Part shown: piece by piece, positions 18,332 through 56,252 of the stretch
Numbering within the stretch: position 1 is the first letter of the stretch
How the letters are laid out: every line of letters starts with the position of its first letter
Source of the DNA: Pelagibacterium halotolerans B2
GTDB taxonomy: Bacteria > Pseudomonadota > Alphaproteobacteria > Rhizobiales > Devosiaceae
Length of the DNA stretch: 64,000 nt
Assembly (NCBI RefSeq): GCF_000230555.1
Contig: NC_016078.1
Coordinates: 744,001-808,000, forward strand
Direction of reading: 5' to 3'
Notes under the pieces: generated by a model
The model's input: only the letters and a program-made list of their open reading frames with translations
Told to the model about the DNA's origin: nothing
Database searches by the model: none
Made by a program: the position numbers and the translations under genes

Positions 18332-18430
18332 GGGAGCAAATGTGGCGGTGGCGCGTTGTCGTGCTATAGGCTGACGGCGCGCCGCCCGCACAATCCATTT
18401 TGATTTGATCGATAACGAGGTTCCCACCCC

Positions 18431-40193: not shown

Positions 40194-41065
40194 TATGGGC
40201 AGAACATTCGGGCGATTGCGGGCGCCATGTTTGGATAGAGCGCATGAAGAACCGAGTTGGTCTTGCTGATCGCGTCAGGGGCAAGGCTCATATAGGCGTC
40301 GGGCTGTCCCATCATGGTAAGAAAATAGCGATTTGAGTGACGCTCCTGTTCCAGGGAAAGGCCTGGAGCGAAGTACTGGGCCCAAAGCCTGTCGACCAAA
40401 AGATCGGGGTCGTCGGAGTTGATTTTCCATCCCTGGCGGCTGGCCTCGAGCCAGCGCCGCAGCGCCGGTCCTTGCGTATCGAGAACCGATGCCGCTACCA
40501 CGACCACATTGTTGGGAAGCGTCGCGCCCAGATTCCAGAGGTTGGTGACGTGAGCGGCATAGCCACTTTTCGCATATCGGTAGGTGGCCGCAACGGGGAA
40601 GTCTATAAAGCCGTCGATAAGTCCGTTCGGCAATTGGTCGACGTCGTGGTCGTAATCGACAATCACGGTCGCTTCGATGCCGGCCCGTTCGAGCAGGTTT
40701 TGCAAAAGAAGCCGGTTGGCGTGCGGGACCCCGATTGTACGCCCAGTGAGATCGTTCAGCGTTTCCAGCGGGTCCGCCGCGGGGCTGACAAGCGAAAGGG
40801 GGCTTTTCTGCAATTGGGCGCCGATTATGCGCAAATCGGCGCCGGTTTGGGCCATTGTGGCCACTACCGACTCCGGCGAACTGAGCGCAATATCGGCACT
40901 GCCGTCCACAAGGGACATTTCCGGCACAAGGCCGGAGCGGCCGGGCAGGTGTTCAACCACGATCTCGCGCGCCGCATAAAGCCCGTCTGCCATTGCCGCA
41001 AAGTAGCCGACAAATTCGCTGTCATTGATCCAGGATGCCTGCAGGCGGATTGCTGTAGGTTCCAT
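40193..41065 (-). CDS. NMT1/THI5-like substrate-binding domain protein, no signal peptide
   Basis: A 290-residue protein with the fold of SsuA/ThiY-type receptors (IRLQASWINDSEFVGYFAA, then SADIALSSPESVV and LTGRTIGVPHANRLL). It has no signal peptide, unlike normal periplasmic receptors, so it may act in the cytoplasm or be a truncated copy. GGAGG precedes the ATG at 41065. The 3' end abuts the DHFR remnant, and the last residues (MFCP) may come from that join. It is divergent from the sugar-type operon and shares its regulatory region. Confidence 0.65.
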   Translation of the reverse strand: MEPTAIRLQASWINDSEFVGYFAAMADGLYAAREIVVEHLPGRSGLVPEMSLVDGSADIALSSPESVVATMAQTGADLRIIGAQLQKSPLSLVSPAADPLETLNDLTGRTIGVPHANRLLLQNLLERAGIEATVIVDYDHDVDQLPNGLIDGFIDFPVAATYRYAKSGYAAHVTNLWNLGATLPNNVVVVAASVLDTQGPALRRWLEASRQGWKINSDDPDLLVDRLWAQYFAPGLSLEQERHSNRYFLTMMGQPDAYMSLAPDAISKTNSVLHALYPNMAPAIARMFCP

Positions 41066-41103: not shown

Positions 41104-41118
41104 AATGAAACGTTTAAC
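41104..41118. promoter_or_regulatory. LacI-type operator, left copy
   Basis: AATGAAACGTTTAAC with palindromic core AAACGTTT (41108-41115). A TTGACG element (41093-41098) lies just upstream. The identical 15 bp occurs at 55037-55051 before the convergent permease operon. A LacI-family gene lies between them, and LacI-family operators commonly have a central CG, as here. Confidence 0.65.
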
Positions 41119-41195
41119 CTCCTATTCACAGCCGTTGCAAGTGCTTTTGCACGGTGAGTGTGTTGCTGCTCTCGTCTTCAACAGAGGGGTTTGAA

Positions 41196-42512
41196 ATGAA
41201 GCGTTTGCTATTGATTGGAACCGCCGCGTATGCGGTCCTGGGCTCCGCCGCGATGGCGGCAGAGCCTGTAACCTTGTGGTTTTGGGGCGCGCCGCCGAAC
41301 CTTCAGGACGCCTTCGAGGAGGTGCTTGTCGGGCCGTTCAATGCTTCCCAGGATGAATACGAACTCCAGATCGAGTTCCTTCAGGACGTTGACAATGACG
41401 TCCGCACCGCGGTTCTGGCCGGGGAAGGGCCGGATCTGGTCTATACATCGGGCCCGTCCTACATCGCGCCGCTCGCCCGCGCCGGCGCCATCGAACCGCT
41501 CGATGCTTATGCCGAACAATATGGCTGGCATGATCGGCTGCTCGAGCCGGTTCTCGACACCTGCTACCAGCTCGACCACCTCTATTGCATGCCCCCGGCG
41601 CTGATTTCCGACGGCATGTTCTACAACCGTGCCCTGCTCGAGGAGAAGGGCTGGGAGGTTCCCACCACGCTGGCCGAAGTCGAACAGGTCATGGATGCCG
41701 CCATTGCCGACGGGCTCTATGCCTCGGTGACGGGCAACAAGGGCTGGCAGCCGGTGAACGAGAACTATGCCTCGATCTTCATCAATAACGTCGTCGGTCC
41801 CGCCCGGTTCTATGAGATCCTTTCGACGGGCGAAGGCTGGGATTCTGCGGAAATGATCAAGGCGATCGAAGAGTCCGCGCGCTGGTTCAAGGCCGGATAT
41901 CTCGGCGGTTCGGACTATTTCTCGCTCAATTTTGACGAGTCCATTTCGCTTGTCAGCCAGAAGCGCTCGCCGTTCTTTTTTGCGCCCTCGATCGGCTTCC
42001 AGTGGGCGACCAACTACTTTACGGGTGACGCGGCCGGCGACTTCGCCTTCGCGCCAATCCCCCAGATGGATGAAAGCCTGCCCTATCCGATTTACGATCT
42101 GGGCGTGGCCTTCACCCTGTCGATCAACGCCAATTCGGACGTTAAGGACGGCGCGGCCGCCGTTCTCGATCTCATCTTCTCGCCCGAATTCGCATCCGAC
42201 ATGGCAGACGTATGGCCGGGCTATTGGGGCATCCCGCTCAGGGAGTTTCCCACCAACCCAGACGCTACCGGCCTGACCGCCTCGTTTCTGGACGCCATGG
42301 CCGATATGACCGCCGCCGTCGATGCTGGAACCTTCGGCTTCAAGATCGGTACCTTCTTCCCGCCGGCCACCAGCCAGGTGATGTTTGAAGATATCGAATC
42401 CGTCTGGCTCGACCGGATGACGGCACAAGATATGCTGGCCAAGGCTGCCAGCGCCTATGCCGATGAAATGGCACAGGGGCTGACCCAGGATCTGCCGCAG
42501 CCTTCAATGTAG
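41196..42512 (+). CDS. Sugar-type ABC transporter substrate-binding protein
   Basis: Periplasmic family-1 (MalE-like) receptor of 438 residues with signal peptide (about 1-20, ending GSAAMAAE). Typical segments are VLAGEGPDLVYTSGPSYI, FYNRALLEEKGWEVPTTLAEV and many aromatic residues that stack on sugars. The ATG at 41196 starts the signal peptide; the open frame from 41154 is not used. Its permeases and ATPase are encoded in the convergent operon 9-14 kb away under a matching operator. An intercistronic hairpin follows. Confidence 0.88.
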   Translation: MKRLLLIGTAAYAVLGSAAMAAEPVTLWFWGAPPNLQDAFEEVLVGPFNASQDEYELQIEFLQDVDNDVRTAVLAGEGPDLVYTSGPSYIAPLARAGAIEPLDAYAEQYGWHDRLLEPVLDTCYQLDHLYCMPPALISDGMFYNRALLEEKGWEVPTTLAEVEQVMDAAIADGLYASVTGNKGWQPVNENYASIFINNVVGPARFYEILSTGEGWDSAEMIKAIEESARWFKAGYLGGSDYFSLNFDESISLVSQKRSPFFFAPSIGFQWATNYFTGDAAGDFAFAPIPQMDESLPYPIYDLGVAFTLSINANSDVKDGAAAVLDLIFSPEFASDMADVWPGYWGIPLREFPTNPDATGLTASFLDAMADMTAAVDAGTFGFKIGTFFPPATSQVMFEDIESVWLDRMTAQDMLAKAASAYADEMAQGLTQDLPQPSM

Positions 42513-42521
42513 GCCGAACCG

Positions 42522-42549
42522 GGCGGCGGTGCCTTGTGGAACCGCCGCC
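42522..42549 (+). terminator. Intercistronic hairpin after the binding-protein gene
   Basis: GGCGGCGGT and ACCGCCGCC form a perfect 9-bp stem around a 10-base loop. Likely to stabilise the receptor message and reduce expression of the downstream enzymes. Confidence 0.55.
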
Positions 42550-42606
42550 TGCACTGCTCCTCCCCGAAATTTGTGATCGGGCCCGATAGGGCCCGGGAGT
42601 CTTCCC

Positions 42607-43722
42607 ATGCCGTCGACAGACAACCCAATGCGCGATCAGATCATCGCAACGCCCGCCGGCCTAAAGGCCGGGTTTGAACACTTCGAGCGCGACGCCCGGC
42701 TGGCCGTGCCGACGCCCTTGGTCTATCGCACCCGCAGGATTGTCCTGATCGGCAGCGGCGACTCGTATTTTGCCGCGAAGGCCGCCGAACTGGCGCTGAT
42801 GGCCCATTCGGGTATCCCCGTCGAGGTCCGTACGCCGCTCGAAGCGGGACGGTATCACGCCGCCTATTCGAGCGCGCCGGACATGGAGAACACCCTGGTC
42901 GTCGCCATTTCCAATTCCGGCGGCGCGGCGCGCGTGTGCGAAGCCGCAACACTCTATCGGCAGGCCGGGGCGACGGTTCTCGCTCTCACCAAGGCGCCTC
43001 AGGGACGTCTTGCCCGGATCTGCGACCATGTCCTGATCGCACCGGTGCCGGGCCTGCCCAGCGCGCCGGGATACGGCCCCTACCTCTTCGCGTTCGTCGG
43101 CTTGCTGCTGCTTGGCATTCGCTTCGGCGAGGTCCGCATGAACATCCTCATGGACGACGCCCAGGCGCTCCGCGGTCGCCTGGCCGACCATTTCGACGAT
43201 CTCGAGACGTTGACCGCCGCGATGGACGTACCGGTTGCCGCCCTGGCCGAAAGGATGTCGAAGGCAAGTCTTTTCGAATTTGTCGGCGGAGGACCCAACC
43301 TCGCGGTGGCCGAATATGGCGCCGCCAAACTGCTTGAAGCCGCCGGTCGACATGCTTTGGCGCGCGATGTCGAGGAATGGACCCATCTCAATTATTTCGA
43401 CCGCGCTCCAGGCGAGATCGCGACGCTGATGATCGATCCCCAGGGGAGTCGCAGCGCCAGCCGCAACGAGGAGGTGCGCACGTATATGCGCCGGCTCGGC
43501 CGCCATCTTGCGGTTGTCGGGACCGGAGAAGATATGCCGCCACTGCCCGAAATTTCCGAATTGTGGTCGCCGCTGTTCACGAGCCTCCCCGTCGCCCTTT
43601 TCGCCGCCCGGATGGCGGCGCTCGACGGAGAAGATTACGGCCGCGGCTCCAAAGGGGCGTGGAGCGACAGCGCCGACGCCTCCACCGTCCAGAAAAGCGC
43701 GATGTTCGAGGCACAGCCATGA
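42607..43722 (+). CDS. SIS-domain protein, GlmS/AgaS/FrlB-like
   Basis: A 371-residue protein with two SIS domains. MRDQIIATPAGL matches the opening of GlmS-like isomerases; the first phosphosugar site is IVLIGSGDSYFAA and AISNSGGAARVCEA. The family includes glucosamine-6-phosphate synthase, aldose-ketose isomerases and the fructoselysine-6-phosphate deglycase FrlB. Being next to a PfkB kinase and an ABC importer recalls frl-type operons, so a deglycase or aminosugar isomerase is possible. Its stop overlaps the next start (ATGA). Confidence 0.8.
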   Translation: MPSTDNPMRDQIIATPAGLKAGFEHFERDARLAVPTPLVYRTRRIVLIGSGDSYFAAKAAELALMAHSGIPVEVRTPLEAGRYHAAYSSAPDMENTLVVAISNSGGAARVCEAATLYRQAGATVLALTKAPQGRLARICDHVLIAPVPGLPSAPGYGPYLFAFVGLLLLGIRFGEVRMNILMDDAQALRGRLADHFDDLETLTAAMDVPVAALAERMSKASLFEFVGGGPNLAVAEYGAAKLLEAAGRHALARDVEEWTHLNYFDRAPGEIATLMIDPQGSRSASRNEEVRTYMRRLGRHLAVVGTGEDMPPLPEISELWSPLFTSLPVALFAARMAALDGEDYGRGSKGAWSDSADASTVQKSAMFEAQP

Positions 43723-44126
43723 CGCTTTCCAACCACAAGCTCAAGACGCTCGCCAATGCAGCCTATGAGATCACCGAAACCGTGCGCGAGGCGGTGGCGG
43801 CCAGCGGCGTGCAGGAGGGCCTTTGCGTCGTTTTCCTGCCCCACACCACCGCCGGGCTGTCGATTACTTCGTTCTGGGACCCCAAGGGGCTCGAAGACGT
43901 CCATGACGATATCAACCGCCTCGTGCCGACCCGCATCGATTTCAAGCACGAGTTCGATACACCCCAGGATGCGGCCGGTCATATAAAATCGGTTCTGATT
44001 GGCGTGAGCCTGACCCTCATTGTGACCGAGGGCAAACCGCTTCTCGGCCATTCGCAGGGTATATTCTTCAACGAATTCGACGGCCCGCGCCAACGCCAGT
44101 TCTTCGTCAAGTGTTCAAATGACTGA
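43719..44126 (+). CDS. YjbQ/UPF0047 family protein
   Basis: A 135-residue single-domain protein of the YjbQ family with the conserved LPHTTAGLSI and GHSQGIFF segments, whose His and acidic residues bind a metal. E. coli YjbQ has a weak thiamine-phosphate synthase activity, but the real role is unsettled. Both ends overlap neighbours (SIS gene by 4 bp, PfkB gene by 8 bp), so it is firmly inside this operon. Confidence 0.88.
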   Translation: MTLSNHKLKTLANAAYEITETVREAVAASGVQEGLCVVFLPHTTAGLSITSFWDPKGLEDVHDDINRLVPTRIDFKHEFDTPQDAAGHIKSVLIGVSLTLIVTEGKPLLGHSQGIFFNEFDGPRQRQFFVKCSND

Positions 44127-45048
44127 CGGAGACGACCTGATCGTCAGCGCCGTGCTGATGGACAATCTCATTTTTGCCGACGGAACCGAACGGCCCAACG
44201 TTCCGGGCGGGGCGGGGCTGTATGCGCTCGCCGGTGCTGCCCTGTTTTCCGAACGGGCAATGCTGGTGGCGGGGACCGGAACCGACTTTCCCCACACCTT
44301 TGCTCCGTGGATGGAACGCAACGGCCTGGCCACAGAGGGTCTGCGGTTCGACGACGCGCATGCGCCGCGCAATGTCCTGCGCTACATCGACGATCACACG
44401 CGCACCGAAACGCCGGTCTATGGCGCTGCCCATTTCGCCCGCCTGGAGCCCCGCCCATCCGACGTTGCGCGCTTCATCGGCAGGGCGCGCAGCATTTACA
44501 TCTTCCGTAATCTCGATGCCGCGTTCTGGCATGGGATCGACACGATGGTCTTTCCCCAAAGGCCGTTGATCTTCTGGGAAATCGCTCTCGACGTCTGCGA
44601 TCCAAAAAACCGCACGGCAATCGAATCCCGTCTCGAAAGGGTCGACGCGCTCTCCATAAACTATGCCGAAGCCAGCGCGATTTTTGGAAGCAGCGACGAA
44701 GCGGACATCATTGCCGGACTTTCCGATTGGCCCGTTGCGACGGTTTTTCTGCGTCTGGGTGCCCGCGGCAGCATGGTCGTGGGGCAGGGCGGCGCCCAGT
44801 TCGTGCCGAGCCTGCCGGTCGATCCCGTCGACGTGACGGGGGGCGGTAACGCTTATGGAGGCGCCGCGATGATCGGCCTGGCACTGGGGTATTCGCAACG
44901 CGAAGCCGCGGCCATGGGCACCGTGGCAGCCAGTTTCGCCATCGGCCAGTTCGGTCCGCCCGAATCGGGCACGCAACCGGTTCGAAACCTGGCGCGGGAG
45001 CGCGTTCAAACACTTTTGCAGGAAATGGAGGCAGCGGTAGCGCCATGA
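44119..45048 (+). CDS. PfkB-family kinase with altered active site
   Basis: A 309-residue ribokinase-fold protein; NVPGGAGLYALAGAALF at the front matches the sugar-binding motif and DVTGGGNAYGGA at the back is the second PfkB signature. The usual catalytic Asp of GAGD is Asn244 here. This change is seen in some Mak32-like relatives, so the protein may be a specialised kinase, very slow, or not a kinase. It overlaps YjbQ by 8 bp and the nucleoside hydrolase by 4 bp. In context it would phosphorylate a ribose-like sugar. Confidence 0.82.
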   Translation: MTDGDDLIVSAVLMDNLIFADGTERPNVPGGAGLYALAGAALFSERAMLVAGTGTDFPHTFAPWMERNGLATEGLRFDDAHAPRNVLRYIDDHTRTETPVYGAAHFARLEPRPSDVARFIGRARSIYIFRNLDAAFWHGIDTMVFPQRPLIFWEIALDVCDPKNRTAIESRLERVDALSINYAEASAIFGSSDEADIIAGLSDWPVATVFLRLGARGSMVVGQGGAQFVPSLPVDPVDVTGGGNAYGGAAMIGLALGYSQREAAAMGTVAASFAIGQFGPPESGTQPVRNLARERVQTLLQEMEAAVAP

Positions 45049-45992
45049 AAAAAATTCTGATCGATACCGATCCAGGCATGGACGATACGCTCGCCATCGT
45101 GCTGGCCATCAAGTCGCCGGCCGTCGACGTAATGGGAATTTCCACGGTCGCGGGCAACTACCCCATCGAGGTCACCACCGCCAATGCCCTCAAGACGCTC
45201 GAACTGCTCGACAGCCGTGAAATTCCCGTGGCGCGTGGCATGGGCAAGCCGCTGGCCCGGCCTTTGCCCAAGGACCCGTTTTCACATGGCTCGGACGGTC
45301 AGGCCGAAATCCATCTTCCCGCCCCCGGTCTCGAACCGGTCGGATCGCACGGTGTCGATCTGATAATCGATACGGTCAAGGCCAACCCCGGCGAAGTGAC
45401 AATTGTGACGCTCGGACCGTTTACCAATCTGGCAATGGCCATAATGAAGGCGCCGGAAATCGTTCCGATGATCGCCGAAGTGGTCTCGATCGCCGGCTCG
45501 TTCGGGCTCAACAAATATGCTTTCGCCAATGCCACCGGCGACACCCCGCAGAGCGAGTGGAACGTTTACGTCGATCCCGAGGCCGCCCAGCAGGTGTTTG
45601 CGTCGGGGGTGAAACTGCGTGCCGTGGGCCTGGATGTTGCGACCCATTTCGACATCAATTTCTCCGAAGAACAGCTCGCAGCGCTCAAATCGTCCGACCG
45701 CGCCGAAGCACATGCCGCCGAAAAAATGGTGCGCTTCGTTCAGGGTCGGGGGTTCGAATCCTACTGTGTCCTGATCGACTCCATGGCCGTTGCCGCTGTC
45801 ATCGATCCCACGCTCATCGGTACCGTCAAGGCCCGGGTGGGCGTCGAGACCAAAGGGGAACTGACCCTGGGACAGACCGTCGCCGATTTCCGCCATCACC
45901 ACGGTTGGATGCACCTGCCGGAAATTGATGTGGCCAACAGCGCCGATTATTCCCGCTTCCTCGATCTCATCATGAAGACGATGCTGGAGTAG
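45045..45992 (+). CDS. Inosine/uridine-preferring nucleoside hydrolase family protein
   Basis: A 315-residue N-ribohydrolase. The calcium-binding DTDPGMDD motif opens the protein, and TLGPFTNLAMA, the NVYVDPEAAQQVF block and a late catalytic region around DSMAVAAVIDP follow family order. It hydrolyses the N-glycosidic bond of ribonucleosides, giving base and ribose. No signal peptide, so it acts on imported nucleoside. Coupled to the PfkB gene by ATGA. Confidence 0.9.
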   Translation: MKKILIDTDPGMDDTLAIVLAIKSPAVDVMGISTVAGNYPIEVTTANALKTLELLDSREIPVARGMGKPLARPLPKDPFSHGSDGQAEIHLPAPGLEPVGSHGVDLIIDTVKANPGEVTIVTLGPFTNLAMAIMKAPEIVPMIAEVVSIAGSFGLNKYAFANATGDTPQSEWNVYVDPEAAQQVFASGVKLRAVGLDVATHFDINFSEEQLAALKSSDRAEAHAAEKMVRFVQGRGFESYCVLIDSMAVAAVIDPTLIGTVKARVGVETKGELTLGQTVADFRHHHGWMHLPEIDVANSADYSRFLDLIMKTMLE

Positions 45993-45995
45993 GCC

Positions 45996-48056
45996 ATGGA
46001 CCGCGCGATACAGGAAAAAATCTACGCCGGCGTTCTGGGCAAGATCATTGGCGTTTATCACGGCCGCCCGGTGGAAGGATGGTCCTATGAACGCATCATG
46101 GCCGAACACGGAGAAGTCGACTATTTCGTCAATGGCAGGATGAAGCTGCCCATAATGCTGCCCGATGACGATATTTCGGGAACGTTCGGCTTTTTCCGCG
46201 CTCTTGAGGACTTCGACTACCCCAAGGTGCTCGATCCGCAAATGGTCGGCAAGACCTGGCTCAATTACATAATCGAGGAAAAGACGATCCTTTGGTGGGG
46301 AGGTCTGGGGCGCTCGACCGAGCACACCGCCTACCTCCATCTCAAGAACGGAATTGCCGCGCCCCGGACCGGAAGCCACGAGTTGAACGGCCCTTGGCTT
46401 CCCGCTCAGATCGGGGCGCAGATCTTCATGGACGGGTTCGCCATGGCCTCGCCCAACGATCCCGACCGTGCCGCCCAGATGGTCCGAGCCGCGGCATCGG
46501 TCAGCCACGACGGGATCGCACTGGATGCCGCCGTGCTGCTGGGCGCCATGGAAGCGCTGGCCTTTTCCGAAACGAATGTCGACACGTTGCTCGACAAGGG
46601 ACTATCCCATGTTTCGGACCGCCATCTGCTTTCGGTCATCGAAGCGCTTCGCGCCCAATGCGAAAAAACCGACGACTGGCATGCGGTGCGCGCCTGGATC
46701 GCCGACAATCACGGTTACGATCACTATGATGGGCCGTGCCACATGGTGCCCAACCATCTGATCGTCCTTATGGCGTTTCTCATGGCCGGCGACGATTTTG
46801 CGCGCTCGCTCAAAATCGCCACGACCGCCGGCTGGGATACAGATTGCAATGCGGGCAATGTGGGGTGCCTCAACGGCATTCGCCTCGGTCTTTCTGCGCT
46901 CGACAAAGGACCCGATCTGCGCGGCCCGGTCTCCGATTTCATGTATGTGGTCACCGCCGACGGTGCCGCCGGCATCACCGATGCGGTGCAGCAAACACGT
47001 GCGATCGTTGCGGCGGCCGACACCCTTAACGACGAACCGGAACACGCTCCGCTTCCGCGTTACGCTTTCGAGTATCCCGGCGCGACACAAGGGTTCGCGC
47101 TCTGCCCGCGGCACGAGGGCCGCCAGGCCGCCCTCGATCTTCAAAACCCTCGGGGAGAGGGGCTGACCGTTGCGCTCAAGGGCCTCTCAATGGGGGTCGC
47201 CGGGGCAATTTCGACCCCGGTCTTCGTCGAACCGTTTGCTGCATCCTCAAGCTTTGCCATGGTTGCCAGCCCAACCCTTTATCCAGGCCAGACCGTAAGT
47301 TTGAACCTCGATATGCCTGATGGTGTAAAGGCGCGTCCCTATGCGCTTATCTACAACCGTGACGACGAGATCGAGCGAATCGAGGGTGATTGGTCGTCAT
47401 CGGCCAATATCGATTGGACCGTGCCCCAGACCAATGGCCTGCCGCTCTACCGCCTGGGCGTGGAGTTTGGCTCCGACACCCGCTTCGATGGCGAAGTGAC
47501 AATCCGCTCGATCGACTGGTCGGGTGCCCCGGCGGCCTACGACATCTCGGGTATGCTGGTAAAGTCGATATGGAACCTGACACCCTTCTGGACACGGGCC
47601 TGGGTGTCGTCCGCACGTCATTTCGCGCCGGACTTCAAATACACGCTGTGTTTTTCCCACCCTTTCGAAAATGGCGTCGCCACCACCGGCAGCAGGGACT
47701 GGAACGACTATTCAGTCGAAAGCTCGCTCGAATATTCGATCAACGACGGGGCAGGGCTGGTCGCCCGCTCACGCGGCCATCGGCGATATTATGCCGCCAT
47801 GCTCAAGGGCGGCGAAGCGCTCATCGTCAAGCGGCTCGACGACGAGGTCTTGGTGCTCTCCCGTCAGTCCGTCGCAATCGGCGCCGAAGGCAAGCGCGAT
47901 CTGCATTTGTCCGTCAAAGGCGACGAGATCACCTTCGCCGTCGATGGCCTTGTTGCCGGTACGGCGCGGGACAGCAGCTTTTCGAGCGGCGCCGCCGGGT
48001 TCATCGTCGAAAAGGGAACCATCGTCGCCGATGGTTTCCATGTCGCCGCATTGTAG
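45996..48056 (+). CDS. ADP-ribosylglycohydrolase-like protein with C-terminal beta-sandwich domain
   Basis: A 686-residue protein. The N-terminal part (about 1-340) is a DraG-type fold: YAGVLGKIIGVYHGRPVEGW, metal-binding PDDDISGT (Asp57-Asp59) and AGWDTDCNAGN (Asp281, Asp283). The C-terminal part (about 350-686) is beta-rich, with SRDWNDYSVESSL and GHRRYYAAM resembling a LamG/concanavalin-type carbohydrate-binding domain (tentative). DraG enzymes cleave N-glycosidic ADP-ribose links. No signal peptide. It is about the same length as, and clearly paralogous to, the gene at 51143. Confidence 0.87.
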   Translation: MDRAIQEKIYAGVLGKIIGVYHGRPVEGWSYERIMAEHGEVDYFVNGRMKLPIMLPDDDISGTFGFFRALEDFDYPKVLDPQMVGKTWLNYIIEEKTILWWGGLGRSTEHTAYLHLKNGIAAPRTGSHELNGPWLPAQIGAQIFMDGFAMASPNDPDRAAQMVRAAASVSHDGIALDAAVLLGAMEALAFSETNVDTLLDKGLSHVSDRHLLSVIEALRAQCEKTDDWHAVRAWIADNHGYDHYDGPCHMVPNHLIVLMAFLMAGDDFARSLKIATTAGWDTDCNAGNVGCLNGIRLGLSALDKGPDLRGPVSDFMYVVTADGAAGITDAVQQTRAIVAAADTLNDEPEHAPLPRYAFEYPGATQGFALCPRHEGRQAALDLQNPRGEGLTVALKGLSMGVAGAISTPVFVEPFAASSSFAMVASPTLYPGQTVSLNLDMPDGVKARPYALIYNRDDEIERIEGDWSSSANIDWTVPQTNGLPLYRLGVEFGSDTRFDGEVTIRSIDWSGAPAAYDISGMLVKSIWNLTPFWTRAWVSSARHFAPDFKYTLCFSHPFENGVATTGSRDWNDYSVESSLEYSINDGAGLVARSRGHRRYYAAMLKGGEALIVKRLDDEVLVLSRQSVAIGAEGKRDLHLSVKGDEITFAVDGLVAGTARDSSFSSGAAGFIVEKGTIVADGFHVAAL

Positions 48057-48074
48057 GATTGGGAGGACGTTTCG

Positions 48075-48992
48075 ATGTCGAGAGACGAAGTCGCGCGGCG
48101 CTCCGCGCTCAGGGCAATCCAAGAGCGCTATGCCTATTGGAACAATGTGCCCCACCGGGGGCTGATGGTGGATGGCAAGCCCGCCATGACCCAGATCGAC
48201 CCTGAAAAGGTGGGCGATTTCGTCCTGGTGACCGTGCGCGACCCGCTGATCGATTATCTTGCCGATCCCGCACATCAGATTTCGGGCCTGCTCGAAGGTG
48301 CTGAACTTATCGGCCAGTCGCGAATGTTCACAAGTTACACAGGCACCTATGAGGGTGCGCGCATCACGGTGGTCAGTGGTGGCAGCGGTTCGTCGGAAGC
48401 CGAACTGCTGCTTTACGACTTCATGGAGTTCTCGGGCGCCCACACCTATCTGCGTGTTGGCGGCTCGGGCGGTGTCGGAACGGACGTCAAGCCTGGAGAC
48501 ATTGTCGTCTCCAGCGGCGTGGTCAGGGAAGAGGGTATGACCCGCGCCTATATCGACAGGGCCTTTCCCGCCGCCAGTCACTATGAGGTGGTCGCGGCGA
48601 TGGCCCAGTCTGCCGACGAGTTGGGAGCCAATTACCATGTTGGCGTTACCCTCTCGGTCGATAGCGATTTCGCCGGCGTGGGGCGTCCGGGGGTGGGTGG
48701 CTATCTCCAGCCCTGGAACATAGAGATGATGGGAATCTACAACCGCGCCGGTGTGCTCAATGGCGATCGTGAATCCGCCGCCGTCGTGACGCTGGCCGCG
48801 CTTTATGGGTTCCGGGGAGGGTCGGTCTGCTCGGTGGCCGACAACATAGTGACGGGCGCCGAGTTCAGCCACGGCGCCGGGCACACCGCGGCCATCGACG
48901 TTGCGCTCAAGGGATGCGCGATCCTCAACCGCATGGACAAGAAGCGTGCCGAAACCGGAAAGCGTTACTGGCTGCCCGGCATGGGGCTCTGA
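48075..48992 (+). CDS. Nucleoside phosphorylase family protein (uridine phosphorylase-like)
   Basis: A 305-residue PNP/UDP-family protein: ARITVVSGGSGSSEAELLL and YLRVGGSGGVGTDVKPGDIVV match the phosphate- and nucleoside-binding strands. It cleaves a nucleoside phosphorolytically to base and ribose-1-phosphate, complementing the hydrolase upstream. GGGAGG lies before the ATG. Its last 28 bp overlap the end of the convergent LacI gene. Confidence 0.86.
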   Translation: MSRDEVARRSALRAIQERYAYWNNVPHRGLMVDGKPAMTQIDPEKVGDFVLVTVRDPLIDYLADPAHQISGLLEGAELIGQSRMFTSYTGTYEGARITVVSGGSGSSEAELLLYDFMEFSGAHTYLRVGGSGGVGTDVKPGDIVVSSGVVREEGMTRAYIDRAFPAASHYEVVAAMAQSADELGANYHVGVTLSVDSDFAGVGRPGVGGYLQPWNIEMMGIYNRAGVLNGDRESAAVVTLAALYGFRGGSVCSVADNIVTGAEFSHGAGHTAAIDVALKGCAILNRMDKKRAETGKRYWLPGMGL

Positions 48993-49996
48993 CCAATCGG
49001 GGCTGCTGCCGTGCTGTCGCGTTGAACCAGGCTGACGCCGACCTTGAAATGGCGCACAGGGCGTGCCGGATCCGCCAGTCGATCGAGCAGCAGCGTCAAC
49101 GCAGCGGCAGCCATTTCCTCGACCGGCTGTTTGACCGTGGTCAACCCAGGCGTAACGATCGAGGCCCAGGGAATATCATCGAAACCCGCCACCGACATTT
49201 CGCCGGGAACGTCGATTCCCAATTGCCGCGCCGTTCGCAGCGCGCCGATAGCCAGCATGTCATTGCCGCACATCAGCGCCGTCACGTCGCGCTGAGCCAT
49301 TCGGTCCCGCACCGCATCCGGAAGGTCGATCGAAAACGGTGTCCGCTCGCGCCAGACGATTTCGCCCTTGCCTTCAAGTGCTTCGATAAAGCCATTGGTG
49401 CGCTCGTTCCTGCCCTCGGCCACCGATGCTCCGGCGAGGATGCCGAAGCGGCGATGCCCCAGCGCCAAAAGGTGGTGTGCCAGCTGGCGCCCGCCCTGCC
49501 GGTCTTCGATGGTCACATTGTCATAGATGAGGTCCGGAACCCCGATAATCACCACGGGCATCACAAAGGGCCGCGTTGGCGCATCCATGACGCTTGTGGT
49601 CTGGCACCAGATTGCGCCGGCAACGCCCTGGCTCTCAAGGTGGCGCATGCCCTCGAGTTCGTCATCGGCCACCCCGGACGTGTCGATCAGCATGACCGTG
49701 TAACCGGCTTGCCTCGCCGCATGCTCGATCGATTGCGCCAGTGCCGGAAAGTATGGATTGCGCAGATCGGGCAGGAGTAGCCCCAGCGTGGTGTTGCGTC
49801 CGGTTCGCACCGACTGCGCCGACCGGTTGGGGCGATAGCCGAGCCGCTGGGCAACATCGCGCACACGGGCGCGAACCTCGTCACCGATCGTCCCGCCGCC
49901 ATTGAGCGAATAGGACGCCGCGGCAATCGACACCCCGGCCTCACGCGCGACGTCTTTGAGCGTCGCCGCTTTTGACAGTTTCGGTTGGCCCGTCAT
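48965..49996 (-). CDS. LacI-family transcriptional regulator
   Basis: A 343-residue repressor: helix-turn-helix at about 11-33 (TLKDVAREAGVSIAAAS), hinge helix SAQSVRTGRN, then a periplasmic-binding-like sensor domain (TLGLLLPDLRNPYFPALAQS). It lies at the 3' end of the permease operon, 66 bp after the ATPase gene, and probably controls both outer promoters through the shared AATGAAACGTTTAAC sites. The inducer is presumably the imported compound or a metabolite. Confidence 0.92.
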   Translation of the reverse strand: MTGQPKLSKAATLKDVAREAGVSIAAASYSLNGGGTIGDEVRARVRDVAQRLGYRPNRSAQSVRTGRNTTLGLLLPDLRNPYFPALAQSIEHAARQAGYTVMLIDTSGVADDELEGMRHLESQGVAGAIWCQTTSVMDAPTRPFVMPVVIIGVPDLIYDNVTIEDRQGGRQLAHHLLALGHRRFGILAGASVAEGRNERTNGFIEALEGKGEIVWRERTPFSIDLPDAVRDRMAQRDVTALMCGNDMLAIGALRTARQLGIDVPGEMSVAGFDDIPWASIVTPGLTTVKQPVEEMAAAALTLLLDRLADPARPVRHFKVGVSLVQRDSTAAAPIGQSPMPGSQ

Positions 49997-50062
49997 CGAT
50001 CCCCCGATCCTCGATCATCTCAACTTATGCCGATTCAAGTCCGGGGCGCAAAGCGCCATGCG

Positions 50063-51139
50063 CTAAATTCGCCGACCCTCGGAGTCAAAGGCCAGGATAT
50101 GGTCGGTTTCCGGCGTCACGAACACCTGTGCGCCGGGCCGGTGCGCTGTCAGCCTGCGCTGCTCGACAGTCAGCGAACCGCCGCCGGCGGTGTCGAGATA
50201 GAGATAGGAAAGATTGCCCAACTGCTCGGTGACGCGCACTGTCGCGGCAATTCCTGTCTCGGTTATCGCGCAGTGCTCTGGCCGGAAGCCGACACGGACC
50301 CCGCTTCCCGTTGCTCGATGTTCGGCCCGCGGCCTGACCGTCAGCAGGACATCGCCCATCTCGGGAACCTTGACCTTGATGCCCTCGTCGGAGGTCTCCA
50401 CGACAGTTCCTGAAACGAAGTTCATTTTCGGTGACCCGATAAATCCCGCGACGAACATGTTGTCGGGATCCTCATAGAGATCGATCGGACGCCCAACCTG
50501 CTCCACTCGCCCGTCTCGCAGCACCACGATCTTGTCGGCCAAGGTCATGGCCTCCACCTGATCGTGCGTTACATAGATCATCGTGGCGCCCAACTCGGTG
50601 TGCAGCCTGGCGATTTCGAGCCGCATCTGCACGCGCAATTCCGCATCGAGATTGGACAACGGCTCATCGAAAAGGAAGATCTTGGGGTTTTTGACAATGG
50701 CGCGGCCGATTGCGACACGCTGACGCTGCCCGCCCGAAAGCGCCTTGGGCTTGCGCGCCAGCAGGGGCTCGAGCTGCAGGGTGCGGGCCGCTTCGGCGAC
50801 CTTGGCGTCGCGCTCTGCCTTCTTCATTCCCTGGATGCGCAGCCCGAAGCCGATATTGTCGGCGACATTCATGTGGGGATAAAGCGCATAGGATTGGAAT
50901 ACCATGGCGACGCCGCGATCGAGCGGCAGCATGCCCGTCACATCGTCACCATCGATCGCGATAGTGCCATCGGTGACATGATCGAGCCCGGCGATCATGC
51001 GCAGCAGTGTGGATTTCCCGCAGCCCGACGGACCGACGAACACGACGAACTCGCCGTCGTCCACCGACAGGTTGACCGATTTGATGACTTCGGTGCTCCC
51101 GAAGTTCTTCTTGACGTCCTTTAGCGACAGACGTTCCAT
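50063..51139 (-). CDS. ABC transporter ATPase, MalK/UgpC type
   Basis: A 358-residue ATPase with Walker A GPSGCGKST, LSGGQRQRVAIGRAIV, Walker B FLFDEPLSNLD and a C-terminal regulatory TOBE domain (about 240-358), as in sugar importers of the CUT1 type. It energises the two permeases encoded upstream in the same operon with the receptor encoded at 41196. Three bp separate it from the ADP-ribosylglycohydrolase paralog. Confidence 0.93.
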   Translation of the reverse strand: MERLSLKDVKKNFGSTEVIKSVNLSVDDGEFVVFVGPSGCGKSTLLRMIAGLDHVTDGTIAIDGDDVTGMLPLDRGVAMVFQSYALYPHMNVADNIGFGLRIQGMKKAERDAKVAEAARTLQLEPLLARKPKALSGGQRQRVAIGRAIVKNPKIFLFDEPLSNLDAELRVQMRLEIARLHTELGATMIYVTHDQVEAMTLADKIVVLRDGRVEQVGRPIDLYEDPDNMFVAGFIGSPKMNFVSGTVVETSDEGIKVKVPEMGDVLLTVRPRAEHRATGSGVRVGFRPEHCAITETGIAATVRVTEQLGNLSYLYLDTAGGGSLTVEQRRLTAHRPGAQVFVTPETDHILAFDSEGRRI

Positions 51140-51142
51140 GGG

Positions 51143-53290
51143 CTACTCCTTGATACGCCTGACGGCAAAGCCGAGGGCCGGAACGGTGCCGCCTTCGATG
51201 AAAAATCCGGCACCGCCCGACAGATACTCGGCATCGGTGGCGTTCAACAGTGCGTGGCCGTCGATGGCGAGAGCTATTGTCTCGCCCTTGACCGATAGCG
51301 CAAACCGTTTGCGGGCATTGGCCTGAAACGCAAATGGCGCGCGCGCCAGCACCGTCTCGGTCCTGTCGCGGCGCTTTATGATCTGGACTTCGCCGTCGCG
51401 GACGATTCCGGCGTAATAGCGCTTGTGGCCGCGTGCCCTGGCCACCAGTCCCACGGCATCGTGCAATTCAAGAGCCAGTTCGGACGACACCGTGTAGTCG
51501 GTCCAGTCGCGCGTGCCGGTCGTTATGACGCCTTCGGCGTCCGGGTGGGACAGGGTGAAGGTGTTGTAGATGTCGGTCGCATAGTGCTTGGCCGAACTGA
51601 CGAACGATTTGGTCCAGAACGTCGTCACGTCCCAGGGCGTGAGGGCAGGGGTCAATTCACGGGCTGTGCCGAATTCGAGATTGTCGGGAGCTCCGGACCA
51701 GTCGAGGTCGATCAGCCCGACCCGGCCCGACAGGCGCTTTTCCGAGGAAAGCTCGATCCCCAGCCTGTGAATGGGGCGCCCTCCCGTGTCGGGAACCGGC
51801 CAGACCAGCTCATTGTCGCCTTTCGCGATCACGAACGGATTGCCGTCTATGCGTGCGAGCTGCTCGGCCTCGTCGAAATACTGGATGAAAAAACGAAAGC
51901 GCGGATTGTCGGATCCGAACCCCCGAACCGTCGCCCGCACTGTCTGCGTACCGTAGAGCGAGGGGCTGGCTATGACCTCGAAGTACGAGGTGTCAGAAAC
52001 CCCGCGCGGTTTGGGGTCTATGAATGTCGGAACCGAAATCGTCCCGGTCACGCCGGGCGCAAGGGCGTGATAGGTGATATCAAGGCCGTTCTCAGGTCCG
52101 GTTTCGTTGAGGTTGCCCACTTTGGTGATCGCCTGAAAACCCTCATGCAGCGGGCACCGTTGGAAGCCCTGCACCGACCCAGGAAATTCAAAGGCAAAAC
52201 GGCTCGTCGGTGCTTTGTGAGATTTCCCCGCCAACGCCGCCGCTGTCCGCAGCACGCGCCGTGTTTCGATCACCGCGTCCGTGACGCATTCGCCGCCATC
52301 GGCACCGACAATATACATGAGATCCGCCACCGGGCCGCGAAAATCGGGACCCTGGCTCAACCCGTCAAGCCCGAGCCGGATGCCGTTGAGCGCACCCAGA
52401 TTGCCCGCATTGCAGTCGGTATCCCACCCCGACGATACGGCGATCTTGAGTCCCTTTTGAACGTCGTCGCCGCCAAGCAGGAGAGAGGCGATCAACAGCG
52501 CGTGGTTGGGCACCATGGGGCAATTGCCCGGATAGCGTTCATAGCCATGATGAGCGCCCAGCCAGCGGCGCACGGCGCGCCAGTCATCGCCGGCGTTAGC
52601 GCATTGATCGCGTACGTCGGAAATTACGCCATTGAGCGCGTCCGACCGGGAATGGCGCAGCCCCAGATCGAGAAGGGTGTCGATATCGCGCTCTGTATAA
52701 GCAGCGGCCTGCATGGCGGCCAGAAGACATGCCGCTTCCACGGCCACGCCATCATGGCTGACCGAGCCTGCGGCCCTCGCCATAGCGGCGGCGCGCTCGG
52801 GGTCTCCGGGATTGACCATCGCCCATGCGTCGATGAAGATTTCCGCACCGATCTGCTCGGCCATGCCCACCCCATTGTGTGCGATCGAACCGCTTTGGGG
52901 CGCTTCGATGCCGGATTTGAGCCGCAGATAAGCGGTGTGTTCGGTTGACCGGCCCAACCCGCCCCACCACAGCACCGTCCGGTCTTCGATGATATAATTG
53001 AGCCAGGTATCGCCGATCGTCCTGGCGGAGATGTCGGTCGGATATCCGTTGTCCTCCAGCGCCCGATAGAAAAGAAACGTCCCCGAAATGTCGTCGTCGG
53101 GCACGATCAGCGGCCACTTGACCTTGTGGTTCACATAATAATCGATTTCCCCGAAGGTCTTTTCGATATCCTCATAGAACCAGCCCTCGACGGCCCTTCC
53201 CAGATAGACCCCGATCAGCTTGCCGAGCACGCCGGCATAGGTGCGGTTCACGACATCGGTTGAGAGCGAGGAAGGGGAATACTGGTTCAT
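51143..53290 (-). CDS. ADP-ribosylglycohydrolase-like protein, second paralog
   Basis: A 715-residue paralog of the protein at 45996: YAGVLGKLIGVYLGRAVEGW, PDDDISGT and SGWDTDCNAGN are kept, as are the C-terminal TRDWTDYTVSSEL and GHKRYYAGIV segments. All metal-binding aspartates are intact, so both copies look active. Its position between permease and ATPase genes ties it to the transporter. Having two copies with the same domain order in one regulon suggests two related linkages or substrates (inference). Confidence 0.87.
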   Translation of the reverse strand: MNQYSPSSLSTDVVNRTYAGVLGKLIGVYLGRAVEGWFYEDIEKTFGEIDYYVNHKVKWPLIVPDDDISGTFLFYRALEDNGYPTDISARTIGDTWLNYIIEDRTVLWWGGLGRSTEHTAYLRLKSGIEAPQSGSIAHNGVGMAEQIGAEIFIDAWAMVNPGDPERAAAMARAAGSVSHDGVAVEAACLLAAMQAAAYTERDIDTLLDLGLRHSRSDALNGVISDVRDQCANAGDDWRAVRRWLGAHHGYERYPGNCPMVPNHALLIASLLLGGDDVQKGLKIAVSSGWDTDCNAGNLGALNGIRLGLDGLSQGPDFRGPVADLMYIVGADGGECVTDAVIETRRVLRTAAALAGKSHKAPTSRFAFEFPGSVQGFQRCPLHEGFQAITKVGNLNETGPENGLDITYHALAPGVTGTISVPTFIDPKPRGVSDTSYFEVIASPSLYGTQTVRATVRGFGSDNPRFRFFIQYFDEAEQLARIDGNPFVIAKGDNELVWPVPDTGGRPIHRLGIELSSEKRLSGRVGLIDLDWSGAPDNLEFGTARELTPALTPWDVTTFWTKSFVSSAKHYATDIYNTFTLSHPDAEGVITTGTRDWTDYTVSSELALELHDAVGLVARARGHKRYYAGIVRDGEVQIIKRRDRTETVLARAPFAFQANARKRFALSVKGETIALAIDGHALLNATDAEYLSGGAGFFIEGGTVPALGFAVRRIKE

Positions 53291-53297
53291 GACAGGA

Positions 53298-54143
53298 TCA
53301 GCCTTTGACTGCCCCGGCCGACATGCCGGAAACGAAATAGCGTTGCATGACGAGGAAAAAGACGACGATGGGCGCGACCAGGATGAAGGCCCCTGCCATC
53401 ATTGCCCCCTGATCGGTCGCATAGGTGCCGTTCATCGACAAATAGCCGAGCGTCATCGTGACGTTGTCGCGCCCTTTCTGGAAGGTCGAGGTGATGAGGA
53501 ACTCATTCCAGGAATTGAGGAAAACGATGATCGCAACGGTAATCAGCCCCGGCTGCATCAACGGCAGCAGAATATATCGGAACGTCTGCCACGAGTTGGC
53601 ACCGTCCATGAACGCTGCGTCGTCGATCTCGCGTGGAATGGAAATCACATAGGCGCGCAAGAGGAAAATGGCGACGGGCAGGTTGATCGCGGTCAGGACC
53701 ACCCCTGTCGCTGCGAAATTGCCCACAAGGCCCAGCCGCGCGAAAACGAAATAGAGCGGAAAAAGGAAAAGCTGGATCGGTACGGTGGTGGCACACAGGA
53801 AATAGATGGTGACAAGCTTCCAGCCGGCAATGTGCTGGCGGGCGAGGGCGACCGCAGCAAGGGACGCGCAGACCAGGGTGAGCACCACCGTCGTGCCGCT
53901 CAAAAGCAGGGAGTTGACAAGGCCGACACCGAAATTGCCACCGCGCCAGGCGCGCGCGAAGTTGGAAAAATCAAAGCTCGTTGGAAGGCTAAGCGGGTTG
54001 GCCACGATGGACGCGTGCGGTTTGAATGTATTGACCGCCACAAGCAGCAGCGGAAGGACCGCAATGAGCACTGCACCGACAAGAAAGGCATTGGCCAGGG
54101 TGCGGCTGATCGGTCGCGGCGATTGGCGTACGGTGTCGGCCAT
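53298..54143 (-). CDS. Sugar-type ABC permease (MalG-like)
   Basis: A 281-residue CUT1 permease with six membrane helices and the EAA loop EIDDAAFMDGANSWQTF near residue 175-190 that docks the ATPase. It pairs with the permease encoded just upstream (3-bp gap) and is followed by the glycohydrolase paralog. Confidence 0.92.
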   Translation of the reverse strand: MADTVRQSPRPISRTLANAFLVGAVLIAVLPLLLVAVNTFKPHASIVANPLSLPTSFDFSNFARAWRGGNFGVGLVNSLLLSGTTVVLTLVCASLAAVALARQHIAGWKLVTIYFLCATTVPIQLFLFPLYFVFARLGLVGNFAATGVVLTAINLPVAIFLLRAYVISIPREIDDAAFMDGANSWQTFRYILLPLMQPGLITVAIIVFLNSWNEFLITSTFQKGRDNVTMTLGYLSMNGTYATDQGAMMAGAFILVAPIVVFFLVMQRYFVSGMSAGAVKG

Positions 54144-54146
54144 GAT

Positions 54147-55013
54147 CTATCTCTCGATGCTCGATCTGCTCAGGGCCACATAGGCGATGGAAGCCAAAAG
54201 CCCGAAAAAGCTCATGATGAGGGCCACCGCCGCTGCCTTACCCACCTGGAAACTGGTGAAGGCGAACTTGTAGGCATAGGTCGAAAGGATTTCGGTGGCG
54301 CGCGCCGGGCCGCCCTGGGTAATCAGATAGACATAGTCGAAGGTGAGGAACGAAAAGATCGTCACCAGCACAAGCATCAGCCCCAGCGTGGGCATGATGT
54401 TGGGCAGCGTAACGAAGCGGAACACCTGCCATCCGTTAGCGCCCTCGAGAAATGCTGCTTCGAGCTGGTCCGTCGGCGTTTGCCGCATGGCGGCGAAAAA
54501 GATGACGGTGAGATAGCCCCAGAAATGCCAGATATCGACCGCGGCCACCGCATAAAGGGCCGTGTCGGGGTTGGCGAGCGGGCTTTGCAGGGGAATGAGG
54601 GTGCGCGAGATGAAAGAGACGACGCCGGAAACCGGGCTGAAAATTATGTTCTGCCAGATGACCGCATTGGCAACCGGCGAGAGCACGTAGGGCAGAAGAA
54701 AAATCACCTGGAACACCGCGGCACTGCGACTGCGGCCCAGAAGCACCGAAGCGGCAACAAGCGCTATCGCCATTGGTATGGTCAGGAAAATCAGCGTCCA
54801 CTGGATGTTGTTTCCGATGGCTATCCACAAGACCGGATCGGCGGCGATGGCCGAAAAATTGGAGAGACCGGTAAAGTGCGGCGCCGACACGCCGTCCCAG
54901 AGCGTGAAAGCCGCCCCGAAGGTCAGGAGCGCGGGAACGAGCACGATGGACAGGCTGATGACAAGGGCCGGTGCCAGGAACAGATAATGCGCGCGGTCCC
55001 GCCGTAGGGCCAT
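54147..55013 (-). CDS. Sugar-type ABC permease (MalF-like)
   Basis: A 288-residue permease with six membrane helices and the EAA loop LEAAFLEGANGWQVF. First gene of the minus operon, it lies right after the operator at 55037-55051. Typical CUT1 F-subunit length. Confidence 0.92.
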   Translation of the reverse strand: MALRRDRAHYLFLAPALVISLSIVLVPALLTFGAAFTLWDGVSAPHFTGLSNFSAIAADPVLWIAIGNNIQWTLIFLTIPMAIALVAASVLLGRSRSAAVFQVIFLLPYVLSPVANAVIWQNIIFSPVSGVVSFISRTLIPLQSPLANPDTALYAVAAVDIWHFWGYLTVIFFAAMRQTPTDQLEAAFLEGANGWQVFRFVTLPNIMPTLGLMLVLVTIFSFLTFDYVYLITQGGPARATEILSTYAYKFAFTSFQVGKAAAVALIMSFFGLLASIAYVALSRSSIER

Positions 55014-55036
55014 GAGACGATCTCCCGATATCCGTG

Positions 55037-55066
55037 AATGAAACGTTTAACTAAGGCGATTGTCAA
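55037..55066 (-). promoter_or_regulatory. Promoter and LacI-type operator, right copy
   Basis: On the minus strand, -35 TTGACA (55066-55061), 17 bp, TTTCAT (55043-55038). The 15-bp site AATGAAACGTTTAAC (plus strand 55037-55051) covers the -10 region, so a bound repressor would block polymerase. It is identical to the site at 41104-41118. Confidence 0.65.
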
Positions 55067-55133: not shown

Positions 55134-56252
55134 CTAGGCCGCCGGGTCCTCGAGGGTGCCGCGACCCGTCAGAAAGTCCCTGAGCGCACCGGCGTAGGGG
55201 GCGATGTCGATCTCGTGTTCGGAAAGCCAGTCGTCATTGTAGTATGTCGACGCATATCGCTCACCGCTGTCGCAGATGATTGATACCAAAGAGCCGCTTT
55301 CGGCTTTTTCGCGCATCTGCGAGGCCACCCAGCACAGCGCCCAGAAATTGGTGCCGGTCGAACCGCCCACGCGCCGCCCCAGATGGTCCGACAGGACCCG
55401 CATCGCGGCAATGGACGCCGCGTCGGGAATTTTGATCATGTGGTCGATGACGCCCGGCATGAAGGACGGCTCGACGCGAGGGCGCCCCACGCCTTCGATG
55501 CGGGACGGCGTGTTGCACACGATGTCCCGACTTTTCGAGCAGTAGGCGTCGTAGAATGCTGAATGCTCCACATCCACAACACAAAGCCGGGTCGCTAGAT
55601 TGCGGTAGCGAATATAGCGGCCGAGCGTTGCCGAAGTGCCACCGGTGCCGGCACTCATCACCACCCATGCGGGGATTGGATGAGGTTCCTTTTCCATCTG
55701 TGAGAAGATGCTTTCGGCAATGTTGTTGTTGCCGCGCCAATCGGTTGCCTGTTCGGCATAGGTGAACTGGTCGAGATAATGCCCCCCGCATTCGCGCGCC
55801 AGCCGCTCGGCTTCGGCATAGACCTGACCCGGCGAGTCCACGAAATGGCATCGTCCGTTATACCGAACGATGGCGTCGATTTTCTGCTCGCTGGTGCTTT
55901 GCGGCATGACCGCGACAAAAGGAAGGCCGAGCAGGTGTGCGAAATAGGCCTCGCTTACCGCCGTCGACCCCGAAGACGCCTCGACCAATGTTGTCCGGCG
56001 GCCGATCCATCCGTTTGCGATCCCGAAAAGGATCAGTGAGCGCGCAAGCCGATGTTTCAGGCTCCCGGTCGGATGGGTCGATTCATCCTTGAGATAGACC
56101 GAAACGCCTTCGAGGCCGGGAAACAGGGGATTGACCAGATGCGTGTCGGCCGACCGGCGGGCGTCGCCTTCAAGAATGGCTAGGGCATGCCGGCTCCATT
56201 CCCGGTCGGGGCAGGCGGCGGTATCGGCAAGGGGAGGGCAGATGGAAAACAT
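55134..56252 (-). CDS. PLP-dependent cysteine synthase-family enzyme (Cds1-like)
   Basis: A 372-residue fold-type II PLP enzyme. Schiff-base Lys66 lies in [11 protein letters not shown], the phosphate-binding loop in [13 protein letters not shown] and [13 protein letters not shown] binds the substrate carboxylate. Within the family the closest pattern I recognise is Cds1, an L-cysteine desulfhydrase, rather than CysK. Cysteine or S-substituted cysteine would give 2-aminoacrylate, which the adjacent RidA can hydrolyse. Last gene of the minus-strand TRAP operon. Confidence 0.83.

Follow-up and report, generated by a model that had tools for sequence, protein, structure and literature searches.

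What compound is imported and broken down by the two convergent operons found in Pelagibacterium halotolerans B2 at positions 41104 to 55066 of the window, that is, of the whole 64,000-nucleotide stretch analysed (NC_016078.1, positions 744,001 to 808,000)? The original prediction treated these genes as one system acting on N-glycosides and offered two readings, salvage of an N-riboside or ADP-ribose-type compound, or an Amadori-type pathway similar to the frl operon. The system probably feeds on a ribose-containing compound, because nucleoside-like enzymes and an importer recur together in very different bacteria. The reading that we favour, with belief and doubt about evenly balanced, is a LacI-controlled regulon for the import and cytoplasmic breakdown to ribose of an uncommon riboside. 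To judge from residue patterns and gene content, the substrate would be an unusual ribofuranoside, N- or O-linked, perhaps purine-related. The genes and putative operators of the locus are the following.

41106–41117, before the receptor operon: putative LacI-type operator TGAAACGTTTAA, copy 1 (sequence match)
41196–42512, + strand: receptor of the ATP-binding cassette (ABC) importer, SBP_bac_1, with a signal-like N-terminal segment (Pfam)
42607–43722, + strand: SIS-domain phosphosugar isomerase-like protein (Pfam, residue alignment)
43719–44126, + strand: YjbQ/UPF0047 protein (Pfam, residues common with E. coli YjbQ)
44119–45048, + strand: PfkB-family protein with Asn244 instead of the catalytic Asp, motif DVTGGGN (Pfam, alignment)
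45045–45992, + strand: nucleoside hydrolase-like protein, IU_nuc_hydro (Pfam, residue alignment)
45996–48056, + strand: ADP-ribosylglycohydrolase-like protein 1 (ARH1), ADP_ribosyl_GH, 686 amino acids (aa) (Pfam, residue alignment)
48075–48992, + strand: nucleoside phosphorylase-like protein, PNP_UDP_1, NP-I fold (Pfam, residue alignment)
48965–49996, - strand: LacI-family regulator (Pfam/NCBIfam)
50063–51139, - strand: ATPase of the ABC importer, UgpC/MalK type (Pfam/NCBIfam)
51143–53290, - strand: ARH2, ADP_ribosyl_GH, 715 aa (Pfam, alignment, AlphaFold model)
53298–54143, - strand: ABC importer permease B (Pfam)
54147–55013, - strand: ABC importer permease A (Pfam)
55039–55050, before the permease/ARH2/ATPase operon: putative LacI-type operator TGAAACGTTTAA, copy 2 (sequence match)

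The + strand operon encodes, in this order, the receptor, SIS, YjbQ, PfkB, nucleoside hydrolase, ARH1 and phosphorylase-like proteins, and the - strand operon permease A, permease B, ARH2, the ATPase and LacI. Intergenic spacing inside both operons is -8 to +94 bases, and where they converge, the ends of the LacI and phosphorylase-like genes share 28 bases, as calculated from the coordinates. In a Pfam search of the window proteins, the family match of every gene named in the original prediction exceeded the gathering score. All genes named in the original prediction were thus recovered in their places; its list was incomplete, since the YjbQ/UPF0047 gene had been overlooked. The importer is of the CUT1 type, with an SBP_bac_1 receptor, two BPD_transp_1 permeases and a MalK-type ATPase carrying a TOBE/OB domain. 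Judged by eye, a typical signal peptide is present in the receptor only, in line with the proposal that the enzymes lack one; a crude hydropathy scan of the first 42 residues was not decisive, the peak being 2.24 in the receptor, 2.06 in PfkB, 2.01 in the hydrolase and 0.38–1.76 in the other enzymes.

The same set of genes was found in distant bacteria. One profile scan with the phosphorylase-like protein, using two peptide patterns and the genomes of 84,980 species, gave at least 38 loci (L numbers below denote loci, of this and of other searches), which is a lower bound. A large ARH is encoded alongside in 28 of the 38, in alphaproteobacteria, Firmicutes, Actinobacteria and Chloroflexi. According to tblastn with the window proteins at a threshold of at least 75 bits, these 28 loci contain PfkB (28), YjbQ (27), the receptor (25), each permease (25), the hydrolase (24), SIS (22) and two ARH copies (18); the open reading frames (ORFs) of the loci came from a simple caller, some being fused or missing, and several loci end at contig edges. 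Among the six ARH-bearing loci without the window-type SIS, L050, L055 and L062 have another SIS-domain protein (Pfam). The 10 loci without ARH comprise short contigs (L040, L047 and L052), partial sets (L056 and L067) and five members of a sister branch. The hosts include Devosia, Mesorhizobium, Pleomorphomonas, Lachnospiraceae, Hungatella, Vagococcus, Agromyces, Kribbella, Prauserella and a metagenome-assembled genome (MAG) of Caldilineaceae, and a Treponema MAG carries the set without ARH in a 9-kbp contig.

The enzymes also diverged in parallel. For five proteins (phosphorylase-like, SIS, YjbQ, PfkB and hydrolase), pairwise distances correlate with r of 0.84–0.93 (20–28 sequences, window included), a level reached in 0 of 299 permutations. 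Among 249 sampled genomes of the window's order, a large ARH is present in 12 (E 1e-60) and the phosphorylase-like protein in six (1e-20), the own genome included; this patchy distribution stands against vertical descent alone. The search for the set in other genomes that the original prediction had proposed as a check therefore found it conserved together in several phyla, and this recurrence supports the view of the genes as one system. The possibility that the set is a local curiosity was rejected on the basis of the 38-locus survey.

The 12-base sequence TGAAACGTTTAA, which carries a palindromic core, occurs exactly twice in the 3,948,887-base genome, once before each operon, while its reversed control occurs 0 times. 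The hexamer TTGACG is located at about 41093, immediately upstream of copy 1. Within the window, a 13-base form of the operator with up to two mismatches matched only the two promoter places; the same search in shuffled windows gave a mean of 0.42 matches, and since two or more were obtained in 7 of 100 shuffles, this test by itself is modest. Exact copies precede the receptor gene in L032, L033 and L034 and the permease A gene in L033 and L034, the sequence of L032 ending short of the second promoter so that one promoter is covered, and in L061 one base is changed at both promoters, with the second copy on the other strand. The two operons look like one regulon under one LacI switch, because the operator occurs twice in the genome, at both promoters, and also in four relatives. 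We infer that it is bound by the LacI protein of the locus.

Residues of the enzymes were compared with those of E. coli proteins (YegU, RihA, Udp, DeoD, MTA/SAH nucleosidase, GlmS, FrlB, FrlD, RbsK and YjbQ), residue roles being those known from the enzymology of these families. ORFs with X or of odd length were skipped, which retained 34 of 36 for the phosphorylase-like protein, 22 of 27 for the hydrolase, 22 of 25 for SIS, 25 of 28 for PfkB, 21 of 23 for YjbQ and 38 of 45 for ARH; the window's own proteins were added. In the hydrolase, the DxDxxxDD motif and the ribose- and metal-binding residues are kept, at each of nine positions in all 23 rows, while the base-side His (RihA His240) is replaced by Ile in all 22 rows with a letter at this position (Ile244 in the window), one row being gapped. 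The phosphorylase-like protein has the NP-I fold (PF01048), and all its 35 rows keep Udp Arg91 and Glu198 (Glu233 here). Other Udp positions have changed: Met197 to Arg (35/35, Arg232 in the window), Phe162 to Asp (31/35, Asp198 in the window) or Glu (4/35), Thr94 to Gly (35/35) and Arg48 to Gly (34/35, the window protein keeping Arg), and Gln166 is absent from all 35 rows. All 35 have Asp256, at a position where DeoD and MTA/SAH nucleosidase also have Asp and Udp has Val. Compared with the salvage enzymes RihA/RihC, Udp, DeoD and MTA/SAH nucleosidase, the window proteins share the folds and ribose-side residues, but their base-side residues and part of the phosphate site are replaced in a fixed pattern.

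ARH1 and ARH2 matched PF03747 with 159.8 and 169.6 bits (gathering score 26.2). In ARH1, an ADP-ribosylglycohydrolase-like domain is joined to a long C-terminal part, which has a homologous counterpart in ARH2. YegU residues Glu24, Asp61, Asp62, Asp280 and Asp282 (here Glu35, Asp66, Asp67, Asp290 and Asp292) are kept in all 40 ARH rows; in the Thr-Asp-Asp-Thr motif, Thr60 is replaced by Asp and Thr63 by Ile, likewise in 40/40. The structure that AlphaFold predicts for ARH2 is of middling confidence (mean pLDDT 72.2, pTM 0.58) and combines two beta sandwiches with a helical ARH part. In a Foldseek search the top rows by E-value were mouse galactocerebrosidase, with a template-modelling (TM) score of at most 0.24, and the tight match was CBM66 of Bacillus subtilis (target TM 0.80–0.84, 1.6–1.8 Å, 151–160 columns). 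The ARH part matched MJ1187, ARH3 and DraG (target TM 0.67–0.75), and galectins were among the further matches. One sandwich of the modelled ARH2, presumably the last, probably has the CBM66 fold. Across three unrelated folds of the locus, the alignments point one way: the side facing ribose, with its free 2' and 3' hydroxyls, is kept, and base-side residues are changed in a fixed pattern.

Relatives of these long ARHs are very common, with at least 7258 matches among 8000 candidates scored, and no assigned role for them was found in open-access PubMed Central (PMC) among the matches listed. A large ARH, matched in three places of a Deinococcus aetherius plasmid (L009), has GH2, trehalase-type and ricin-domain genes beside it, neighbours that hint at glycans as a setting for this class of ARH. 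A chromosome-like stretch of a large plasmid of Enterobacter hormaechei (L006) has LacI, large ARH and receptor genes flanked by chiP and glnS; a chitin/GlcNAc link proposed from this location was judged positional and rejected.

In all 23 rows, the SIS protein keeps GlmS residues Lys485, Glu488 and His504 (Lys241, Glu244 and His260 here). GlmS, FrlB and the window SIS have the Glu and His in common, and FrlB has Thr at the Lys485 position; the top NCBIfam models for the window protein are GlmS, with the FrlB model not listed. The YjbQ protein shares His42, His77, His88 and Glu119 with E. coli YjbQ; no function of YjbQ was found in open-access PMC among the matches listed.

The PfkB protein matched PF00294 with 70.4 bits (gathering score 25.8), yet the catalytic Asp of its GAGD motif (RbsK Asp255) is Asn in all 26 aligned rows. 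The Asn was found in 28/28 kept ORFs nearest to the window's PfkB and in four of five further loci (L063 gave no motif), that is, in 32/32 readable loci. A motif script found it in 87 of the 91 proteins of a database search, query included, among the matches listed; the four Asp-bearing ones are distant (26–32% identity). Other PfkB genes in these loci retain Asp wherever the motif is readable, and some loci also hold canonical ribokinase-like PfkB genes; for the one compared with NCBIfam, that of L041, the best model is ribokinase, under the cut-off. The equivalent residue of Salmonella RikA, Asp343, is reported to be critical (PMC13432705). The PfkB of the pathway is unlikely to act as an ordinary sugar kinase. 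The same Asn occurs in the fungal PfkB-family proteins P0326, P0327, P0328 and P0332–P0335 (26–27% identity). Yeast MAK32 is another fungal PfkB-type protein.

Additional genes in related loci lie, by their family assignments, mostly in nucleoside and purine territory. Fourteen loci, 12 of them in Firmicutes, encode a protein of about 370 aa whose halves are both of the nucleoside-deoxyribosyltransferase type (Pfam on two of the 14), and a homologue of adenosine deaminase is present in four loci of actinobacteria (family scan on one of the four). The prediction that nucleoside-type C–N bond enzymes dominate the system agrees with these additions. L041, L043 and L044 also carry a gene of the phosphodiesterase family and a further importer. 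The sister branch (L059, L064, L065, L066 and L069) combines the phosphorylase-like protein with a different ABC importer and, in four of five loci, with a PfkB carrying the usual Asp. Amidohydrolases are encoded there (four of five loci scanned, Pfam/NCBIfam), that of L059 scoring above the 8-oxoguanine deaminase cut-off, and an indigoidine-synthase-A-type protein, a PucR regulator, a creatininase-type protein and a NADAR protein were each found in one locus tested. The first of these is of the pseudouridine-5'-phosphate glycosidase family. The L064 receptor is 2-aminoethylphosphonate-like, under the cut-off. The sister branch is possibly a separate pathway for modified nucleosides.

Simpler operons share with the window LacI, a CUT1-type importer, a large ARH and a UgpC-type ATPase. 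The plasmid forms L010 (Agrobacterium) and L011 (Nitratireductor) comprise LacI, an importer, a short and a long ARH and an ATPase, L010 having a ribokinase as well. In L008 (Rhizobium), LacI, receptor, permease, ARH and ATPase genes are present, but the ARH, receptor and permease B matches are in pieces, and this copy may be broken. A second cluster of the own genome (L083, C1:143000–160000) contains LacI, two permeases, a receptor, ORFs for ARH proteins (432 and 739 aa) and a UgpC-type ATPase; it continues with CoA-transferase, HpcH/HpaI aldolase, esterase and sulfatase-modifying-factor-like genes. In these four stretches (17–26 kbp), tblastn gave no match to the SIS, YjbQ, hydrolase, phosphorylase-like or window-type PfkB proteins. 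Since they have the ARH step without the SIS, YjbQ, hydrolase and phosphorylase-like genes, the comparison suggests that this step is the core and the window set an elaboration.

In the favoured riboside pathway, the receptor, two permeases and ATPase would, by their families, import the compound. ARH1 and ARH2, with their metal and diol residues kept, would be metal-dependent furanosidases with carbohydrate-binding-like C-terminal domains and would release a ribofuranosyl unit. The hydrolase-like and phosphorylase-like enzymes, in which the ribose side is kept and the base side replaced, could cut the ribosyl bond to an unusual aglycone, a step that the tandem deoxyribosyltransferase-like protein would join in many Firmicutes. 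Ribose would enter central metabolism via ribokinase, which is encoded inside the loci of some relatives; the SIS protein would isomerise a phosphosugar, and the regulator would repress both operons via the putative twin operator. The aglycone may be purine-like, because of the purine-type Asp, the adenosine-deaminase homologue of four loci and the 8-oxoguanine-deaminase-type and pseudouridine-glycosidase-family genes of the sister branch.

Several observations weigh against this explanation. LacI and the ATPase occur in only 12 and nine of the 28 ARH-bearing loci; therefore, these two parts are not universal. The transporters track the enzymes less tightly than the enzymes track each other (r of 0.68–0.81 for the receptor and 0.58–0.84 for the permeases), and parallel distances can also be obtained from vertical descent. 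Other groups of nucleoside hydrolases also lack the base-side His, so its loss need not alter the substrate class. A SIS isomerase is not obviously required if the product is ribose, and the riboside reading does not account for the Asn of PfkB. The remaining points favour the main rival, fairly unlikely in our judgement, in which a furanosyl O-glycoside, an oligo- or disaccharide with a ribo-, arabino- or fructofuranose end, is degraded and the nucleoside-like enzymes are re-used as glycosidases or glycoside phosphorylases. The receptor family SBP_bac_1 is of the oligosaccharide type, and the best solved relatives of the receptor bind sugar or glycerol-phosphate, with weak E-values. Among the folds matched by the ARH2 beta domains, that of a carbohydrate-binding module fits most tightly, the GH2 and trehalase-type neighbours of the Deinococcus ARH suggest plain sugar glycosides, and in L056 (Arthrobacter) the phosphorylase-like and PfkB genes lie beside those of Gfo/Idh/MocA and xylose-isomerase-like proteins, in the manner of sugar pathways. 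The replaced base-side residues of the hydrolase-like and phosphorylase-like proteins would fit an O-glycoside too, but the deoxyribosyltransferase-like and adenosine-deaminase-type genes of relatives and the kept Asp256 favour nucleosides. The bond that is cut may be either C–N or O-glycosidic.

Ordinary salvage of inosine, uridine or adenosine by an unusual operon is improbable: the best NCBIfam models of the hydrolase are RihC, UriH and RihA and the nearest relatives of the phosphorylase-like protein are uridine and purine phosphorylases, but every NCBIfam score of both proteins is under the curated cut-off, the Udp residues listed above are replaced or absent in all rows (Arg48 in 34/35), and two large ARHs, YjbQ and SIS would be superfluous. 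Quite improbable, too, is a substrate derived from ADP-ribose, NAD or poly(ADP-ribose), of which ARH would cut the alpha-ribosyl bond and the other enzymes take the adenosine part. The ARH family and fold with its kept metal residues, the adenosine-deaminase homologues and the phosphodiesterase-family gene with a second importer in three loci agree with it; however, both Thr of the Thr-Asp-Asp-Thr motif are replaced, and Pfam found no NUDIX, nicotinamidase or phosphatase in the window's set. Importers of this family are not known to transport charged dinucleotides. The frl-type pathway for Amadori compounds or N-glycosyl amino acids was set aside on SIS and PfkB residues and is very improbable. 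SIS and PfkB are indeed combined in the E. coli frl operon for fructoselysine, as they are with an importer here, and for the accessory SIS of actinobacterial L055 the FrlB model is listed weakly (19.5 bits, among twelve); the resemblance holds at the family level only, since one catalytic residue each of SIS and PfkB differs, and frl, which has no ARH or nucleoside enzymes, leaves the ARH, hydrolase and phosphorylase-like genes unexplained. Thus, of the two readings first offered, which are supported in part, the N-riboside fits better than the Amadori compound because SIS has the GlmS triad and PfkB is without the catalytic Asp of FrlD. E. coli yegTUV (PMC10819704) resembles the window in adjoining genes for a nucleoside-type transporter, an ARH and a PfkB; unlike the window, it has a short ARH (334 aa), a PfkB with the usual Asp, a major facilitator superfamily transporter and no further enzymes.

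Neighbouring genes were rejected as parts of the set. None of the 38 loci gave a tblastn match to the PALP gene at 55134, the ORF at 38658 or the DctM gene at 57793. The PALP gene product, a pyridoxal phosphate enzyme encoded at 55134–56252 on the - strand and adjoining the second operator, reached 563.8 bits with the model of Cds1 cysteine desulfhydrase, whose cut-off is 600. The gene of an NMT1-like binding protein (40193–41065, - strand) is divergent from the receptor operon and shares its operator region; it was left out because only L032 and L033, two Devosia loci in which its homologue lies directly upstream of the receptor, matched among the 38. Elsewhere in the window, two adjoining very long ORFs of 1276 and 1342 aa occupy 12162–20002 on the - strand.

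No description of this gene set was found in open-access PMC among the matches listed, absence there being no proof of absence in print, and the prediction that the combination is not a described pathway agrees with this. More tentatively than the riboside regulon itself, we propose a pathway for a widespread ribosylated metabolite that has so far escaped notice as a nutrient; the pathway would be common to gut Firmicutes, alphaproteobacteria, actinobacteria and others, long ARHs would be nutritional furanosidases, and the PfkB clade would have given up the kinase base to catalyse another reaction or to act in sensing. The PfkB of the set is a clean natural case of a protein of this family fixed in the absence of its catalytic Asp, and the dedicated receptor and repressor provide ready handles for identifying the compound. 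If the long ARHs serve in taking up nutrients, carbon metabolism would also include a family that is known for the reversal of ADP-ribosylation.

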